From Microbacterium sp. RU1D (lineage in GTDB: Bacteria; Actinomycetota; Actinomycetes; Actinomycetales; Microbacteriaceae): 64,000 nucleotides of DNA. This document shows positions 11,570 through 63,051 of the stretch, piece by piece (position 1 is the stretch's first letter; every line of letters starts with the position of its first letter). A program made the position numbers and the translations under genes. The notes under the pieces are model-generated. The model saw nothing but the letters and a program-made list of their open reading frames with translations. It was not told the DNA's origin and made no database searches. The stretch spans positions 248,001 through 312,000 of the forward strand of contig NZ_FTPQ01000002.1 of assembly GCF_900156435.1 (NCBI RefSeq), read 5' to 3'.

Positions 11570-13267
11570 TCAGCCTTTCTCCGCCGTCTCGCCGATCCGC
11601 AGGTCGAGAGGGAAATCGATGGGAAACGACCCGAACAGCAGCCGACCCGCGGATGCCGCGGACTCCCGCACGGCATCCGCGACCGCATCGGCGTGTTCGA
11701 GGGGCGTGTGCACGACGATCTCGTCGTGGAGGAAGAAGGCCAGGTGCGGAACCCGCGCGAACACCGGACCCGAGGCCGGCGCCGCGCGGGCGGCATCCAC
11801 CGGGCAGAGGCGGGCCAGCCGCGCGCGCAGGTCGGCGAGCCACGCGAGGGCCCACTCGGCGGCGGTGCCCTGCACGACGAAGTTGCGGGTGAAGCGGCCG
11901 CGGTCGCGGGCGGAGCGGCGCGCGCGGGTCTCGTCGGCCCCGGATGCCGCCGCGTCGCTCGCGAGGGACTGCAGGTGCTGCCAGGCGTCTCCGGCGGCGG
12001 GCGAGGTGCGCCCGAGCCAGGTGCGGACCACTCCCCCGTTCTCACCCGTGCGGGCCGCGTCGTCGACGAGCTGCATCGCCCGCGGAAAGGTGCGGCGCAG
12101 GCGTGGCAGCAGGCGGCCGCTCTCGCCCGTGGTGGCGCCGTACATGGCGCCGAGCATCGCGAGTTTCGCCTCGGCGCGGCTGCCGACGGCGCCGCGTTCG
12201 ACGATGCCCGCGTAGAGATCCCGACCGGATGCCGCCTCGGCCAGCGCCGTGTCGCGTGCCATCCCCGCGAGCACGCGTGGTTCCAACTGAGCGACGTCGG
12301 CGGTCACGAGGGTCCAGCCCGGGTCGGCGCGGACCGCGGTGCGGAGCGAGCGCGGTATCTGCAGCGCCCCGCCGCCCGACGACGCCCACCGGCCGGTGAC
12401 GACCCCGGCGGGCACGTAGACGGGGCGGAAGCGGTCGTCGTGCACCCACTCCTGCATCCAGGCCCACCCGTTCGCCGTGTAGAGGCGCATGAGCTTCTTG
12501 TAGGCGATGAGCGGGGCGACGACGGGGTGGTCGTGCTCGGCGAGTTCCCACCGACTCGTGGAGGTCACCTGGAGCCCTGCCCGGTGCAGCGACCGCAGCA
12601 GCCGCGGCTGCGAGTCGAGCGACGCGCTCGGGTCGTCCAGGGCTGCGCGGACGACCGCTGCCGTTCGTTCGATCCTTGCGGGGAGGCCGCCGCCGCGGCG
12701 CTCTCCGAGCTCGCGTTCGAGCATCTCCTCGTGCGCGCGTCTGCTCCAGGGGACTCCCGCCGCGTGCAGCTCCGCCGCGATGAGCGCCCCCGCCGATTCC
12801 GCCGCGCAGAGCAGGCGCAGGGCACCCGGGGCCGTCGACGCGGCGATGGCCGCGAGCTGCCGCCGATACTCCGCGACGGCGTCGTCGAGGGTGTCGGGCA
12901 GGGCGCTGGAGGTGTCGCCGAGGTCGAAGAGCGTGTCGCCCGTCGCGGGGGCGGCGCTGCCGGCATCCCACTCGGGATGGGAGCGGAGCCCGTGATCGTC
13001 GGTCACTGCCGCGGCGTCGCGCAGGATGCCGTGCACCAGGCGCAGGTCCCATGCGCGCGCGACGCGGACCCCGGCCCTCAGCAGGTTGGGGTACACGGTC
13101 GCCGTGTCAGCCCACACCCACCGGACGTCACCGCGCGCCTCGCGCTCCGCGGCGGCGGCGACGAGACCGTCGGCGGCGACATCGACGGATGCCGCGTCGC
13201 CGTCGAGAGGCTGGAGGGCGAAGCGCCCGCGGGCGGTGCGCCCGACGACGACCGTGTCAGACGGCAC
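11570..13267 (-). CDS. PolA-like bifunctional 3'-5' exonuclease/DNA polymerase
   Basis: 565 residues, shorter than DNA polymerase I and without a 5' nuclease domain. Family A motifs are recognisable but divergent: motif A reads VTADVAQLEPRVLAG, motif B RAEAKLAMLGAMYGATTG, motif C FFLHDEIVVHTP. The N-terminal part is a reduced exonuclease-like region (WVWADTATVYPNLLRAGV). Actinobacteria often carry such an accessory gene besides a full polA; its biological role is poorly defined. Its stop is 15 bp from the next gene on the same strand. Catalytic Asp/Glu positions look intact, so activity is plausible. Confidence 0.85.
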   Translation of the reverse strand: MPSDTVVVGRTARGRFALQPLDGDAASVDVAADGLVAAAAEREARGDVRWVWADTATVYPNLLRAGVRVARAWDLRLVHGILRDAAAVTDDHGLRSHPEWDAGSAAPATGDTLFDLGDTSSALPDTLDDAVAEYRRQLAAIAASTAPGALRLLCAAESAGALIAAELHAAGVPWSRRAHEEMLERELGERRGGGLPARIERTAAVVRAALDDPSASLDSQPRLLRSLHRAGLQVTSTSRWELAEHDHPVVAPLIAYKKLMRLYTANGWAWMQEWVHDDRFRPVYVPAGVVTGRWASSGGGALQIPRSLRTAVRADPGWTLVTADVAQLEPRVLAGMARDTALAEAASGRDLYAGIVERGAVGSRAEAKLAMLGAMYGATTGESGRLLPRLRRTFPRAMQLVDDAARTGENGGVVRTWLGRTSPAAGDAWQHLQSLASDAAASGADETRARRSARDRGRFTRNFVVQGTAAEWALAWLADLRARLARLCPVDAARAAPASGPVFARVPHLAFFLHDEIVVHTPLEHADAVADAVRESAASAGRLLFGSFPIDFPLDLRIGETAEKG

Positions 13268-13282
13268 GGGCGCCGGGAGGGA

Positions 13283-14011
13283 TTATCGCGATTCTTCGGT
13301 GCGGACGAGGATCGCGCCGCACTCGGGGCAGAACACGACCTCGTCGGTCTGCGCGCGGCGGACCGCGGCCAGATCGCTGGGCGGGAGCACCATGCGGCAG
13401 GCTTCGCACGCGCCGGCGCGCAGTAGACCCGCGCCGTTGCCGCGCGAAGCGAGACGCTCGTAGAGCCCGAGCAGGTCGGTCGGGACGGAGGCCGCCACGG
13501 CCTCGCGGTCGCGGCGCGCGCCGTCGAGCCGCGTCGTCGCGTCGGACACGGTGGTCTTGGCTTCGGCGCTGAGCTGGGCGCCCTGCGCGTTGGTGTCGGC
13601 GATCAGGGCCTCCTGCTCGGCGACCGCCGCGTCGGCGGCCTCGAGGCGCTCCATGAGCGCGATCTCCATGTCTTCGAGGTCGCCCTTGCGGCGCTTCAGC
13701 GAGACCAGTTCGTTCTCGAAGCCCTGCGCCTGCTTGGGGTTCGACGAAGCCGCGAGGCGCTCGGTGTCGCGCGCAATGCGGGCGTCGACCACGGCGACAT
13801 CGGATTCGAGGCGCTTCAGCTCGGCGGTGATGTCGTCGCGCGCGTTGGCGCGGGTGCCGAGCTCTTGCGACAGCGTCGCCCGCTGGGCGATGAGCTCGCG
13901 CACGCGCTCGGCCTGCGGCGGGTTCGCTGCCACGCGCTCGTCACGACGGATGCGGGCGTCGAGGTCGGCGAGATCGAGCAGTTTGCGCTGGTCGGCGGGA
14001 TCGGCATTCAC
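13283..14011 (-). CDS. Coiled-coil protein with C4 zinc ribbon (CT398-like)
   Basis: 242 residues from a GTG (VNADPADQRKLLDLADLD); an ATG 30 bp upstream is possible but adds an atypical leader. Residues roughly 10-175 form a long coiled coil (repeated heptads such as ELKRLESDVAVVDARIARD and KRRKGDLEDMEIAL). The C-terminus is a zinc ribbon with two Cys pairs, CEACRMVLPP and VFCPECGAILV. This is the CT398-like/zf-RING_7 family, common in actinobacteria next to nucleic-acid genes; its function is unknown. It shares strand and close spacing with the PolA-like gene. Confidence 0.85.
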   Translation of the reverse strand: MNADPADQRKLLDLADLDARIRRDERVAANPPQAERVRELIAQRATLSQELGTRANARDDITAELKRLESDVAVVDARIARDTERLAASSNPKQAQGFENELVSLKRRKGDLEDMEIALMERLEAADAAVAEQEALIADTNAQGAQLSAEAKTTVSDATTRLDGARRDREAVAASVPTDLLGLYERLASRGNGAGLLRAGACEACRMVLPPSDLAAVRRAQTDEVVFCPECGAILVRTEESR

Positions 14012-44390: not shown

Positions 44391-44418
44391 GAAGGCCCGA
44401 CGCGGACGTCGGGCCTTC
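44391..44418. terminator. Hairpin left of attL; original tRNA-Asn terminator displaced by integration
   Basis: Perfect 12-bp stem GAAGGCCCGACG / CGTCGGGCCTTC, loop CGGA. It lies 5 bp upstream of the left copy of the tRNA-Asn 3' half, so before integration it would have followed the tRNA gene (minus strand). It also serves the + strand gene ending at 44,384. Confidence 0.7.
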
Positions 44419-44422
44419 TGTG

Positions 44423-44460
44423 GCTCCCCGGCTTGGACTCGAACCAAGAACCTATCGGTT
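44423..44460. repeat. attL core: left copy of the 38-bp direct repeat
   Basis: Identical over 38 bp to 62,142-62,179. It starts GCTCCCCGGCTTGGACTC and ends ACCTATCGGTT. It is the 3' half of tRNA-Asn (minus strand) up to the anticodon, without the 5' half, so no tRNA can be made here. To its right (44,461-44,498) lies phage sequence that would complete the viral form of the repressor gene. Confidence 0.95.
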
Positions 44461-44546
44461 TGCAGCCCATCGTGGTCCTCAAACGCCGCGCGGCCTAGGC
44501 CGTTCTGGCGCTGAGTATTAGCCGAGAAGTAACCGGAGTATCGAAC

Positions 44547-45422
44547 ATGCGTTCTACGGTAAACGTCCCCGCAGGGTTGCGGGTCGTATCGGGGGGAACG
44601 ATGATTCCGGGGAATCAGGAGCTGGTCACGGCGTTCGAGCGGTGGCTCTTAGGGACGGACCGCATGGACGGGACGATTGCCCTGCGCATGCGACACGTCG
44701 TGGACCTCGCGTGCCGCGTGGAGCTGACCACCGCGACGGAAGACGAGCTGCACGACATCTTGGCCGACCGCCGCGGCCTCGCCGCCGAGACCCGAAAATC
44801 GATGCTGGCGTCTTGGCGGGTCTACTTCGGATGGGCGCTTCGCCGCGGCCACCGCCGCGACGACCCGACCGTCGAGATGAAGTCCATTCGCGTGCCCGTC
44901 CGTGTTCCGCGGGTGGCGGCAGACGGTGACATCGAGCTTGCTCTGTCACGCGCTAGTGACCTACATCGGGCCATGGTGATGCTCCCCCGGTATGCCGGCC
45001 TCCGCCTGGAGGAAATTGCCCGCTCGCACAGTGACCACCGCGATGGGGACATGCTCCGCGTTCTCGGCAAGGGCAACAAGGAGCGCGTCGTCGGGCTGAA
45101 CGAGCCGCTTCTCGCTGCTCTGCGCACCCTGGAGCGCGACCACAGCGGCTACTACTTCCCGGGCCTCCGCGGCGAGCACATGCACAAGATGAGCGTCAAC
45201 AAGATCATCACGCGCATCACCGGCTGGAACCCGCACAGCCTCCGTCACGCATGCGCTACACAGGCCTATCGGGAGACTGGAGACCTGCGTGCGGTGCAGG
45301 ACATGTTGGGCCACGCTTCGCTAGCCACGACGCAGCGCTACCTGCACCTGGACGCCGATATCCGCCGCCGCGTAGCCGCAGCGACCATCATTAGGCGAGA
45401 GCGGTCTAAGCTCGCGGCGTGA
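44547..45422 (+). CDS. int: Tyrosine-family phage integrase ending in Leu-Ala-Ala
   Basis: 291 residues. SAM-like N-terminal DNA-binding domain (about 24-105) and catalytic domain with Arg153 in AGLRLEEIARS, the beta-strand Lys in GKGNKER (175-178), His230/Arg233 in HSLRHACAT, His256 in LGHASLATT and nucleophile Tyr265 in QRYLHL. It inserts and excises the prophage at tRNA-Asn. The C-terminus RRERSKLAA ends in LAA, the residues that make ssrA tags ClpXP substrates, so Int may be unstable. CGGAG precedes the ATG. The next gene overlaps it (GTGA). In the circular phage it would lie about 50 bp downstream of the repressor on the same strand. Confidence 0.96.
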   Translation: MRSTVNVPAGLRVVSGGTMIPGNQELVTAFERWLLGTDRMDGTIALRMRHVVDLACRVELTTATEDELHDILADRRGLAAETRKSMLASWRVYFGWALRRGHRRDDPTVEMKSIRVPVRVPRVAADGDIELALSRASDLHRAMVMLPRYAGLRLEEIARSHSDHRDGDMLRVLGKGNKERVVGLNEPLLAALRTLERDHSGYYFPGLRGEHMHKMSVNKIITRITGWNPHSLRHACATQAYRETGDLRAVQDMLGHASLATTQRYLHLDADIRRRVAAATIIRRERSKLAA

Positions 45423-45622
45423 CACACGCCCAGAAGCTTCGCATCATGGCGACGACGCTCACCGCCATCATCTTCGCCATCGTCCTGTGGATCGTCGTGC
45501 AGCTCGCAATAGGCGCGAACGCCACAGCGGCCAAGGAGGAGCGCGACGACTGGTGCTTGGCGAACGGCGTCAGCACTTTCGAGTGCGACGCGACATACGA
45601 GTCCCGGGAGGGTGTCCGGTAA
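45419..45622 (+). CDS. Small single-span membrane protein coupled to int
   Basis: 67 residues from GTG overlapping the integrase stop. One helix (MATTLTAIIFAIVLWIVVQL) follows a short basic start, then a ~35-residue tail with two Cys (DDWCLANGVSTFECDATYE) that could form a disulfide if exported. No homolog recognised. Expressed with int, so it is a lysogeny-side gene; superinfection exclusion is a guess. Confidence 0.7.
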   Translation: MTHAQKLRIMATTLTAIIFAIVLWIVVQLAIGANATAAKEERDDWCLANGVSTFECDATYESREGVR

Positions 45623-61312: not shown

Positions 61313-61587
61313 GAGTCCTTCCGGGCGTCGATCCATGACGCAGACGGGTCGGGAGGATCAGCCGGTCCGATACCCCCTGCCGAGTAGGCCGCGACTCCTT
61401 CGCGCGCTGCATCTGAGCGCAGCTCCCGGAATTCAGCGGGTGAGTTGTTCGCGCGGGCGTACCAGTAGTCGGCGTCCGACTCGGCGCGGGCGAGGGCGGG
61501 CGACAGTACGGCCCATGCGGCGCGGAAGCCGCGCGCCCACGCGCGTCCGTCGTCGGCCTGGCCGCGCGGGTGGGCAATGGCGCTCAC
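61309..61587 (-). CDS. Small early phage protein
   Basis: 92 residues from GTG overlapping the excisionase stop (VSAIAHPRGQADDGRAWARG). Helical middle (AVLSPALARAESDADYWYAR), acidic/Pro-rich end. The frame is open far upstream, but only this part is coupled and coding-like. Unknown function. Confidence 0.6.
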   Translation of the reverse strand: MSAIAHPRGQADDGRAWARGFRAAWAVLSPALARAESDADYWYARANNSPAEFRELRSDAAREGVAAYSAGGIGPADPPDPSASWIDARKDS

Positions 61588-61787
61588 TGCGCAGGCTCCC
61601 ACGGCTCGTTGGCGAGGATGGCCTCCACCTGAGCTGGGTTGAACAGGAACGCGCCGCGCGGCCCGGGCAGACGCTTCACGGGAGTCAGCCGCCCGTCCTG
61701 CACCATGCGCGTGACGGTCTTCACTGACTTGTCGAGCGCTTCGGCCACCTCCGCCGAAGTCATGGCCTGAGAATACGGATTGGACAT
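61584..61787 (-). CDS. Excisionase/Cro-like helix-turn-helix protein
   Basis: 67 residues (MSNPYSQAMTSAEVAEALDK). A MerR/excisionase-type winged helix: TSAEVAEALDKSVKTVTRMV followed by GRLTPVKRLPGPRGAFLFNP. It is the first gene of the lytic strand, divergent from the repressor by 85 bp, so it may be both recombination directionality factor and early regulator. No Shine-Dalgarno precedes the ATG; a leaderless transcript is likely. Confidence 0.82.
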   Translation of the reverse strand: MSNPYSQAMTSAEVAEALDKSVKTVTRMVQDGRLTPVKRLPGPRGAFLFNPAQVEAILANEPWEPAQ

Positions 61788-61872
61788 GCGACAAAGCATG
61801 CGTGTTGCTTTGGCGTATGTCAAACGATGACCCACTTGCGGCGTGTCTCGGCAATGTCCTATCGTTTGACGC
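61788..61872. promoter_or_regulatory. Genetic-switch intergenic region with two divergent promoters
   Basis: Lytic promoter (minus): perfect -35 TTGACA (61,823-61,818), 17-bp spacer, weak -10 CATGCT (61,800-61,795), predicted start within a base or two of the excisionase ATG. Repressor promoter (plus): -35 TTGCGG (61,836-61,841), 18-bp spacer, -10 TATCGT (61,860-61,865), predicted start at the repressor ATG. Both genes would be leaderless or nearly so. Confidence 0.6.
61819..61870. promoter_or_regulatory. Inverted operator arms of the phage switch
   Basis: GTCAAACGAT (61,819-61,828) and its perfect inverse ATCGTTTGAC (61,861-61,870), separated by 32 bp. One arm covers the -35 of the lytic promoter and the other the -10 of the repressor promoter, as expected for repressor/Cro binding. 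Confidence 0.7.
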
Positions 61873-62181
61873 ATGAGCACCGTCTTTGACGCGCGTCGCC
61901 GTCCGACCTTCGATCTGCGCCACCGGCTTGTCCTGGCTCGGGAGGTGGCCGAGATGGAGCAAGCCCAGGTCGCGGAGGCGCTGGGCGTGTCTCGGCAGAC
62001 TGTGAGCAACTACGAGCGCGGCTTCACGCAGCCCCGACGAGCGACCGTGCTCGCGTGGGCGATGGCAACCGGCGTGGACACCGAGTGGCTGGAGCGGGGA
62101 ACGGAAAACCCCCGCCCGGATAACCCGGGCGGGGGTTCGTTGCTCCCCGGCTTGGACTCGAACCAAGAACCTATCGGTTAA
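61873..62181 (+). CDS. rep: Phage repressor whose 3' end spans the attachment site
   Basis: 102 residues in the prophage. XRE-type HTH: AREVAEMEQAQVAEALGVSR then QTVSNYERGFTQPRRATVLA (about 22-61), followed by a short linker and PGLDSNQEPIG, which is encoded by the antisense of tRNA-Asn. The stop TAA uses the anticodon bases (62,179-62,181). In the excised circle the frame would continue past the core into 44,461-44,498 and add LQPIVVLKRRAA, ending Arg-Ala-Ala (114 residues). Integration would therefore trim a possible degradation tag, as in integration-dependent immunity. Probably leaderless. Confidence 0.88.
   Translation: MSTVFDARRRPTFDLRHRLVLAREVAEMEQAQVAEALGVSRQTVSNYERGFTQPRRATVLAWAMATGVDTEWLERGTENPRPDNPGGGSLLPGLDSNQEPIG
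62107..62137 (-). terminator. tRNA-Asn terminator embedded in the repressor gene
   Basis: Perfect 13-bp stem AACCCCCGCCCGG with its complement, five-base loop; on the minus strand it follows the tRNA 3' end by 5 bp and is followed by TTTTCC. The phage thus supplies both the tRNA 3' half and its terminator, within the coding region of rep. Confidence 0.8.
62142..62179. repeat. attR core: right copy of the 38-bp direct repeat
   Basis: Identical to 44,423-44,460. It forms the 3' half of the functional tRNA-Asn (discriminator, acceptor 3' strand, T-arm, variable loop, 3' side of the anticodon stem) and ends one base before the anticodon. Confidence 0.95.
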
Positions 62182-62215
62182 CAGCCGATTGCTCTGCCAA
62201 TTGAGCTACCGAGGA
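62143..62215 (-). tRNA. tRNA-Asn (GTT), integration target
   Basis: Intact minus-strand cloverleaf: acceptor TCCTCGG/CCGGGGA (one T-G), D-arm GCTC/GAGC, anticodon stem ATCGG/CCGAT with loop CTGTTAA (anticodon GTT), T-arm CTTGG/CCAAG, discriminator G; CCA not encoded. The 5' half is chromosomal and the 3' half belongs to the prophage end, so function is preserved. Confidence 0.95.
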
Positions 62216-62277
62216 TCATGCTCACCTCGCGGCGGGCAACCCCACGATACTAACAGCACGCGGGGGCGGCGGAAAAA

Positions 62278-63051
62278 TCAGCGCGCCGAAATCCGTCGCT
62301 CGGGCGTGCCGTCGGGGGTCCACTGGAGGGTCCGATCGCCGTGGCCCAGCGCGACCGCGTGTCCGGCATGCAGGACGAGGACGTCGGCATCCAGGTCGCG
62401 CGGGGCGTCGGCGTCGTTCGTGACGATGAGCGACGCCATGCCCCGCTCGTCGCGGCGGCGCGTGATCGACGCGCGCGCCGCGGCGCGCACCTCCACATCG
62501 AGGTTGGCGTACAGGTCGTCGGCGACGAACAGGCGCGGCTCGAGCACGAGGGCACGGGCCAGCGCGACGCGCTGCCGCATCCCGGCGCTCAACTCGTACG
62601 GATACTTCGGAGCGGTGCCCAGCGGCAGCTCCATCTCGTCGAGCAGCGTCGCCACGCGCACCGCGAGGGCTCGCGTGTTGACCCGGCGGTCGCGGCTCGT
62701 GATGGGTTCGGCGATGACGTCCTGCACGGTGAGCCGCGACGGCAGCCCCGCACCGGCGCCTTGGGGCAGGTATCCGGTGTGGAAGACCCACTCGCGGCGC
62801 GCACGCCCGGGGCGCCGCGCCGAGATCCCGTGGATGCGGGCGTCTCCCCCGACCACGGTCAGGCCGTCGTCGGGGTGGCCCGCCAGCAGCGAGACGAGCG
62901 AGGTCTTGCCCGCCCCCGTCGCGCCACGCACCACGAGCGTGCCCCCGGCGGCGAGGGTCACGGTGATCCCGTCGATGACGCGCACGCCGTTGCGCGCGAG
63001 CGAGAGGTCGTCGGTGCGGAGGGCGACGTCTGTGTCGAGAGACCGGGCCAT
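62278..63051 (-). CDS. ABC transporter ATP-binding protein
   Basis: 257 residues from ATG (MARSLDTDVALRTDDLSLAR). Walker A VRGATGAGKTSLVSL, signature YELSAGMRQRVALARAL, Walker B with Asp instead of the usual Glu (LFVADDLYANLD), and the H-loop region LIVTNDADAP has Asn where most have His. No permease gene is adjacent. It follows dnaG on the same strand by 112 bp. The altered catalytic Glu and H-loop may mean slow hydrolysis or a non-transport role. Confidence 0.85.
   Translation of the reverse strand: MARSLDTDVALRTDDLSLARNGVRVIDGITVTLAAGGTLVVRGATGAGKTSLVSLLAGHPDDGLTVVGGDARIHGISARRPGRARREWVFHTGYLPQGAGAGLPSRLTVQDVIAEPITSRDRRVNTRALAVRVATLLDEMELPLGTAPKYPYELSAGMRQRVALARALVLEPRLFVADDLYANLDVEVRAAARASITRRRDERGMASLIVTNDADAPRDLDADVLVLHAGHAVALGHGDRTLQWTPDGTPERRISAR

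Follow-up and report, generated by a model that had tools for sequence, protein, structure and literature searches.

The prophage and its repressor gene

The window, i.e. the whole 64,000-nucleotide stretch of Microbacterium sp. RU1D DNA that was analyzed, contains a prophage of 17.7 kb (17,719 bp from core start to core start) with a 38-bp attachment core at either end (Table 1). Its large open reading frames are open, including those with matches to capsid, portal, terminase, primase, integrase, and repressor, the portal and terminase matches being weak. When the capsid profile was compared with 297 genomes of the order, 7 genomes matched, the window's own counted. The core at attR is the 3′ half of tRNA-Asn(GTT), and the genome contains no further full-length match to the sequence of the tRNA-Asn at this site. 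The prophage boundaries are supported by uninterrupted tRNA-Asn sites in two loci of the same genus, L148 and L151. In these natural empty sites, sequence resembling the left flank runs straight into an intact tRNA-Asn (77% over 288 bp and 75% over 346 bp, respectively), and both alignments take in the core. The encoded 3′ end of the tRNA-Asn changes from GCCA (attB side, 44419-44425) to GCAA after integration (62142-62215). After rebuilding, the tRNA-Asn has therefore lost its encoded CCA and would depend on CCA addition. In three genomes of the genus (G415, G451, and G418) the tRNA-Asn core is present in a second, partial copy at about 4, 9, and 16 kb from the tRNA, respectively, and other elements may possibly use the same tRNA-Asn site.

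The repressor gene rep lies at the right end of the prophage. Its best-matched family was phrog_2328 (transcriptional repressor), which aligned with residues 2-101. The reading frame enters the core at codon 90 and is open across it, which places attP inside rep. The stop codon of the prophage form is TAA (62179-62181), where the core provides the T and the tRNA-Asn anticodon, in its host part, the AA. An earlier, sequence-only reading of this DNA, according to which the repressor frame enters the core and stops at the tRNA anticodon after 102 residues, is thereby confirmed. Excision was reconstructed in silico by joining 62179 to 44461. At this junction the frame stayed open for 12 further codons, LQPIVVLKRRAA, resulting in a protein of 114 residues with the C terminus VVLKRRAA. 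The expected run of 12 codons to Arg-Ala-Ala was thus recovered, and integration shortens the repressor from 114 to 102 residues, as had been proposed. Both forms have an identical helix-turn-helix domain, and the difference between them lies solely past the core. In an AlphaFold model of the 102-residue form, five helices were found in residues 15-75 and 57 of the 102 residues had a pLDDT of at least 90; the pLDDT was below 50 at residues 84-99, and the tail is predicted to be disordered.

An excisionase/MerR-like helix-turn-helix gene is divergent from rep. The gap between the two genes contains an exact inverted 10-bp pair, GTCAAACGAT and ATCGTTTGAC, as candidate repressor operators; no other exact copies of either are found in the window. 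Copies with one mismatch were rejected as further operators, as their number in the window (3 versus a chance mean of 1.9) was not above chance. A sigma-70 consensus scan of positions 61500-62300 gave no promoter.

In the reconstructed circular phage, rep, attP, and int are in tandem on one strand with a gap of 48 nt between rep and int, as the sequence-only reading had anticipated. The C terminus of the integrase, RERSKLAA, is an ssrA-like end by sequence. A further trait of the BPs/Brujita type is that it has neither a recombination directionality factor nor arm-type sites; in this respect, Pfam detected the catalytic domain alone in Int, and the prophage also carries the excisionase-like HTH_17 gene. 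Genes annotated as excise or excisionase occur in the related phages SallySpecial, Emperor, EricDab, Bipper, and Doggs, together with a putative one in Brujita. The int stop codon is overlapped by an open reading frame for 67 residues (45419-45622) with a probable membrane segment, which may be translated together with int; family searches with it gave no match above the cut-off.

Table 1. Features of the prophage ends in window coordinates
Feature	Position	Strand	Basis
12-bp hairpin beside attL, host side; possible native tRNA-Asn terminator, parted from the tRNA by integration	44391..44418	-	z -4.9
att core, left copy (attL)	44423..44460	.	38 bp identical to 62142-62179
rep viral-form 3′ end, 12 extra residues ending KRRAA	44461..44498	+	reconstructed, 62179 joined to 44461; stop TAG 44496-44498
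int, tyrosine integrase, 291 aa, ends RSKLAA	44547..45422	+	Pfam Phage_integrase 1e-23
Excisionase/MerR-like HTH gene, divergent from rep	61584..61787	-	HTH_17 3e-7; PHROG excisionase families
Exact inverted 10-bp pair, candidate repressor operators	61819..61870 (61819-61828, 61861-61870)	.	sequence
rep, prophage (truncated) form, 102 aa, HTH_3 repressor	61873..62181	+	Pfam HTH_3 2e-12; phrog_2328
13-bp hairpin in rep, 4 nt before core; possible terminator of rebuilt tRNA-Asn	62107..62137	-	z about -5
att core, right copy (attR), inside rep	62142..62179	.	38 bp; begins in rep codon 90
tRNA-Asn(GTT), attB target, rebuilt at attR	62142..62215	-	ARAGORN

Related loci and the ends of the viral proteins

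A search with rep in 398 genomes of the family gave matches at 1e-8 in 21 genomes, the window's own included, and the related set comprised 21 other loci in 20 genomes. As in the window's prophage, rep stops inside an antisense tRNA in 15 of the 21 loci, with the stop starting at most 6 nt from the anticodon, which is more than would be expected by chance. rep runs beyond its tRNA in L012, no tRNA is present at rep in L020, and four loci have no tRNA in the stretch. The tRNA targets of the related loci are tRNA-Arg, -Asn, -Thr, and -Lys. Six of the 21 loci are located at contig ends, and the core was searched for in the other 15. Thirteen of them have at rep a direct repeat 35 bp or longer, and rep stops at the end of the core in 12 of these 13. 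The repeats are spaced by 8.2-17.7 kb (n = 13), with 12 of the 13 at 14.8 kb or more. No such repeat was found in G052 and G271. In G033 and G343 the direct repeats measure 82 and 84 bp and cover the core together with a hairpin in front of it. G343 has two upstream copies, one further at 22.6 kb; the sequence suggests that elements at one tRNA lie in tandem or have been replaced.

Apart from the prophage itself, the nearest IMG/VR phages by capsid (79-90%) are L063, L064, and L074. They have a different repressor, the frame of which likewise ends in tRNA sequence. The repressor is therefore exchangeable, with an attachment site retained at its end. In L063, L064, L074, L068, and gp20 of Microbacterium phage PensacolaC28 (L027), the tRNA half in the repressor gene has the same orientation as rep; that of the window has the opposite one.

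For the C-terminal ends, 32 systems were compiled, 15 of them direct and 17 reconstructed. L069 and L094 were counted as direct for the repressor, though int is located at the opposite contig end. Omitted were G033, where the rep frame continues past the 82-bp repeat; Doggs, L077, L079, L125, L129, and L141, where no tRNA core was found in rep; and L052, L058, L066, L068, L095, L124, L139, and L063/L064/L074, where a second core copy was not found. All members of the second group except L141 end in AA, including the repressor-like reading frames of L077, L079, L125, and L129, which thus have a tag-like end but no attP found in rep. Among the 32 viral repressors, 17 end in AA, 3 in AS, 6 in a single Ala, and 6 otherwise; the integrase ends in AA in 18 of the 32 systems. 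Both proteins end in AA in 15 systems, the repressor alone in 2, the integrase alone in 3, and neither in 12, in a count that ignores relatedness. A final Ala-Ala was found in 3 of 107 other coding sequences of five small phages, in 7 of 358 open reading frames of the window (at least 60 aa, six frames), and in 4 of 111 prophage open reading frames, int included.

For the 17 reconstructed viral repressors, the ends were AA (5), AS (1), a single Ala (6), and others (5; e.g. VSV, IDRD, and AVRS). Of seven reconstructed systems at tRNA-Arg(ACG), G161 alone has AA on either protein. The ends of repressor and integrase are RVAS and RALR in G185, which also uses tRNA-Asn, and LVK and LAD in L078, which was seen directly. 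Because AA occurs on just 5 of the 17 reconstructed repressors, and in G161 alone at tRNA-Arg(ACG), the conserved feature, as judged from the compared sequences, is the truncation at the core and not a classical tag. By its C-terminal residues, the window's prophage falls in the tagged subset. Its repressor end, RRAA, is not the canonical LAA, which counts against the reading as a tag.

Known systems and the proposed switch

The sequence-only reading had assigned the locus to the arrangement of mycobacteriophage BPs and its relatives, in which, reportedly from work by Broussard et al. in 2013, the viral repressor carries a destabilizing C-terminal tag. Those features of this arrangement that are visible at the DNA level are present, and the KLAA end of the integrase, which had gone unmentioned, is found in addition. 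The order rep-attP-int was also recovered in a search of phage genomes, with the core inside rep and int directly downstream. It is present in the complete genomes of the Gordonia phages SallySpecial, Emperor, EricDab, Coeur, Wizard, and Jeanie and of the Curtobacterium phage Barebow, as well as in two IMG/VR contigs. In L093 rep ends in RIAA, and the int match starts 50 nt on and ends in VMAA; the arrangement in L078 is the same. Phages of Gordonia with this gene order were among the best matches to rep and to int in the phage collection. The highest identity to rep among the first matches listed was that of an 81-residue protein without the core from Arthrobacter phage Cole.

Integration-dependent immunity is described for mycobacteriophage clusters G, N, and P in PMC9262239. 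As in BPs and Brujita, attP lies in rep, attB is a host tRNA, the stop comes from host sequence beside the core, and rep and int are in tandem; the C-terminal tags on the viral repressor and the integrase are also shared, those of the prophage by sequence (PMC9262239 and PMC4557955). For BPs, it is stated that both forms of the repressor bind DNA alike and that the long form is inactive through degradation (PMC4557955). The prophage differs in its host family, in its use of tRNA-Asn, in RRAA instead of LAA, and in its size, 17.7 kb versus 41.7 kb (Liefie record) and 47.1 kb (Brujita record). Closer in size are the small Gordonia phages (Jeanie of cluster CW, SallySpecial, Emperor, EricDab, and Coeur) with genomes of 15.9-17.1 kb; Gordonia phages with integration-dependent immunity, including those of cluster CW with its atypically small genomes, are reported in PMC5559632. 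rep has a tRNA-like core and an AA end in 5/5 of these small phages and int an AA end in 4/5 (Jeanie, AVA), and all except Jeanie have a capsid-protease protein related to that of the window. However, the hosts are Gordonia, the tRNA sequences are other ones, and the best identities were 25-29% for the capsid and 39% for Int. As for nucleotide similarity to cluster CW, blastn at 1e-5 with the prophage segment 52500-60300 matched no Gordonia record.

Two Bifidobacterium prophages of ~18 kb with integration-dependent immunity, Bb423phi2 and 689b-1, also have the repressor at attR, the integrase at attL, and a tRNA as target (PMC6109161, also for the following). Their viral repressor is longer by 18 residues with an ssrA-like tag, according to an in silico reconstruction; the hosts are Bifidobacterium and the target is tRNA-Met. 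Induction of Bb423phi2 gave no excision. Barebow (PQ868957; 18,292 bp) has a Microbacteriaceae host, a capsid-protease fusion, and a hairpin before the core in common with the prophage. Its 133-residue repressor contains a tRNA-Arg-type core and ends in RRAS, and int follows 64 nt downstream and ends in AIAS. In contrast to the prophage, both proteins thus end in AS and not AA, and the listed annotation does not mention an integration-dependent system. PensacolaC28 (PP978844; 16.7 kb), with a capsid 31% identical over 99% and a repressor-like gene with tRNA-like sequence, alone among the phage records showed nucleotide similarity to the segment 52500-60300 (68% over 13%). It differs in that the orientation of the tRNA half with respect to rep is opposite to that in the prophage and the integrase is annotated as two open reading frames (13009-13885).

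The sequence makes it likely that the attP-in-rep arrangement acts as a switch for integration-dependent immunity of the BPs/Brujita type. Integration strips the last twelve residues of the repressor, likely a self-destruct tag, and immunity would therefore depend on integration. In the viral form, the RAA end of the repressor and the KLAA end of the integrase would make both proteins targets of a host protease, ClpXP for example. The free phage would then contain little active repressor, as the tagged form would be degraded. An integrase lasting long enough would bring about integration, by which the tag would be lost and a stable short repressor obtained. The latter would bind the operators in the gap between rep and xis and shut off the leftward lytic genes.

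The overlap could instead be a by-product of integration at a tRNA site beside the repressor, with the working part of the protein ending at about residue 76, both forms equally stable and active, and the alteration confined to a silent tail. Such a view would fit the folded domain, which ends at about residue 75 in the model, and the phage matches listed, which stop at residues 76-80; the Cole repressor is short and has no core, and the viral repressor lacks an AA end in many relatives. Against it, AA on the viral repressor and on the integrase tend to co-occur in the 32 systems (relatedness ignored) and the ending is uncommon in the other phage coding sequences. Moreover, the Gordonia relatives with AA on both proteins are members of a class described with this system (PMC5559632). 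We regard the by-product view as unlikely and favor the immunity switch.

It is highly improbable that rep is some other helix-turn-helix regulator at the prophage end while immunity is set elsewhere. A second helix-turn-helix gene does exist (61584-61787), but it is the excisionase-like gene from which rep diverges, with the inverted candidate operators between the two. In addition, the Gordonia and Mycobacterium phage relatives of rep are annotated as immunity repressor, and the best family is a transcriptional repressor. Even less credible is a decayed prophage with the junction as a relic: the nearest capsid relatives have a different repressor module, but the large reading frames of the prophage are open and the two cores are identical over all 38 bp.

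The immunity switch as such is already known, and what is new here is the host family, Microbacteriaceae, for which no description was found. The sequence-only reading knew of none in a Microbacteriaceae phage this small. With regard to the family this still stands, since no Microbacteriaceae phage was found credited with the system in the accessible portions of the literature on integration-dependent immunity, and attP is absent from the main texts of PMC7302621 (Microbacterium phages) and PMC9862828 (Curtobacterium prophages). With regard to size it does not, as the small Gordonia cluster CW phages and the ~18-kb Bifidobacterium prophages are in print (PMC5559632 and PMC6109161) and Barebow has been deposited. 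Isolated Microbacterium phages are mostly lytic, according to PMC7302621. A lysis-lysogeny switch without the separate integration and immunity controls of lambda would be extended to tiny temperate Microbacteriaceae phages. Because fifteen loci of the family and an isolated phage have a common layout, they allow a comparison of the switch between different tRNA targets and different tag sequences, and because some lineages have no recognizable AA tag, the requirement for the tag is directly testable.

The hairpin before the core

The stem of the hairpin in rep is followed by TTTT on the tRNA strand, and the hairpin folds better than 466 of 466 background windows. Once the phage is integrated, the tRNA promoter is directed leftward, through rep and into the lytic strand, with the original terminator left behind at a distance of 17.7 kb. 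For this reason a terminator at the hairpin is plausible; located within the rep coding sequence, it would end transcription of the rebuilt tRNA. A consensus terminator scan of 61500-62300 gave one site (61785-61800) and did not list the hairpin, which has a short T-tail. Both this result and the relatives without a hairpin lower the probability of the terminator reading.

In 29 systems, the 50 nt preceding the core were given a rank among windows taken from the respective phage or prophage; they were within the strongest 5% in 24 of them, the exceptions being G127, EricDab, L078, L117, and L095. Three extra systems missed by the motif gave 2/3 (L093 fails), and five extra phages with 55-nt windows gave 3/5 (Liefie and Jebeks fail), so that the hairpin is within the strongest 5% in 29 of all 37 ranked systems. 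Because of the exceptions named, the hairpin was not accepted as diagnostic of the class. Among the small Gordonia phages it is within the strongest 5% in 4/5 (EricDab, 6.2%). Liefie (Gclasvirinae) has no strong hairpin before the core, as an equally good fold is reached by 80% of its windows, and Brujita, which was folded but not ranked, has no strong stem adjoining it. The distance between hairpin and core is 4-8 nt in 20 of the 29 systems. The T-richer flank is on the tRNA strand in 23/29 and on the rep strand in 3/29.

In the broadest reading of these features, on which our judgment is evenly balanced, the 75 bp from 62107 to 62181 would be triple coded, for the repressor tail, the 3′ half of the host tRNA, and a tRNA terminator on the opposite strand. 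One recombination would then remove the tag, rebuild the tRNA with its anticodon as the rep stop, and swap in a phage-borne terminator, which would spare rep and the lytic genes antisense transcription from the tRNA promoter. Such a built-in terminator, provided that it is real, accounts for the placing of the repressor head-on against a transcribed tRNA gene. It may be the part that is new, as no report was found in the literature on terminators in such repressor genes. The tRNA half of PensacolaC28, although turned the other way, likewise has a T-tailed hairpin behind its 3′ end; this hairpin ranks at 5.8%, just outside the strongest 5%.
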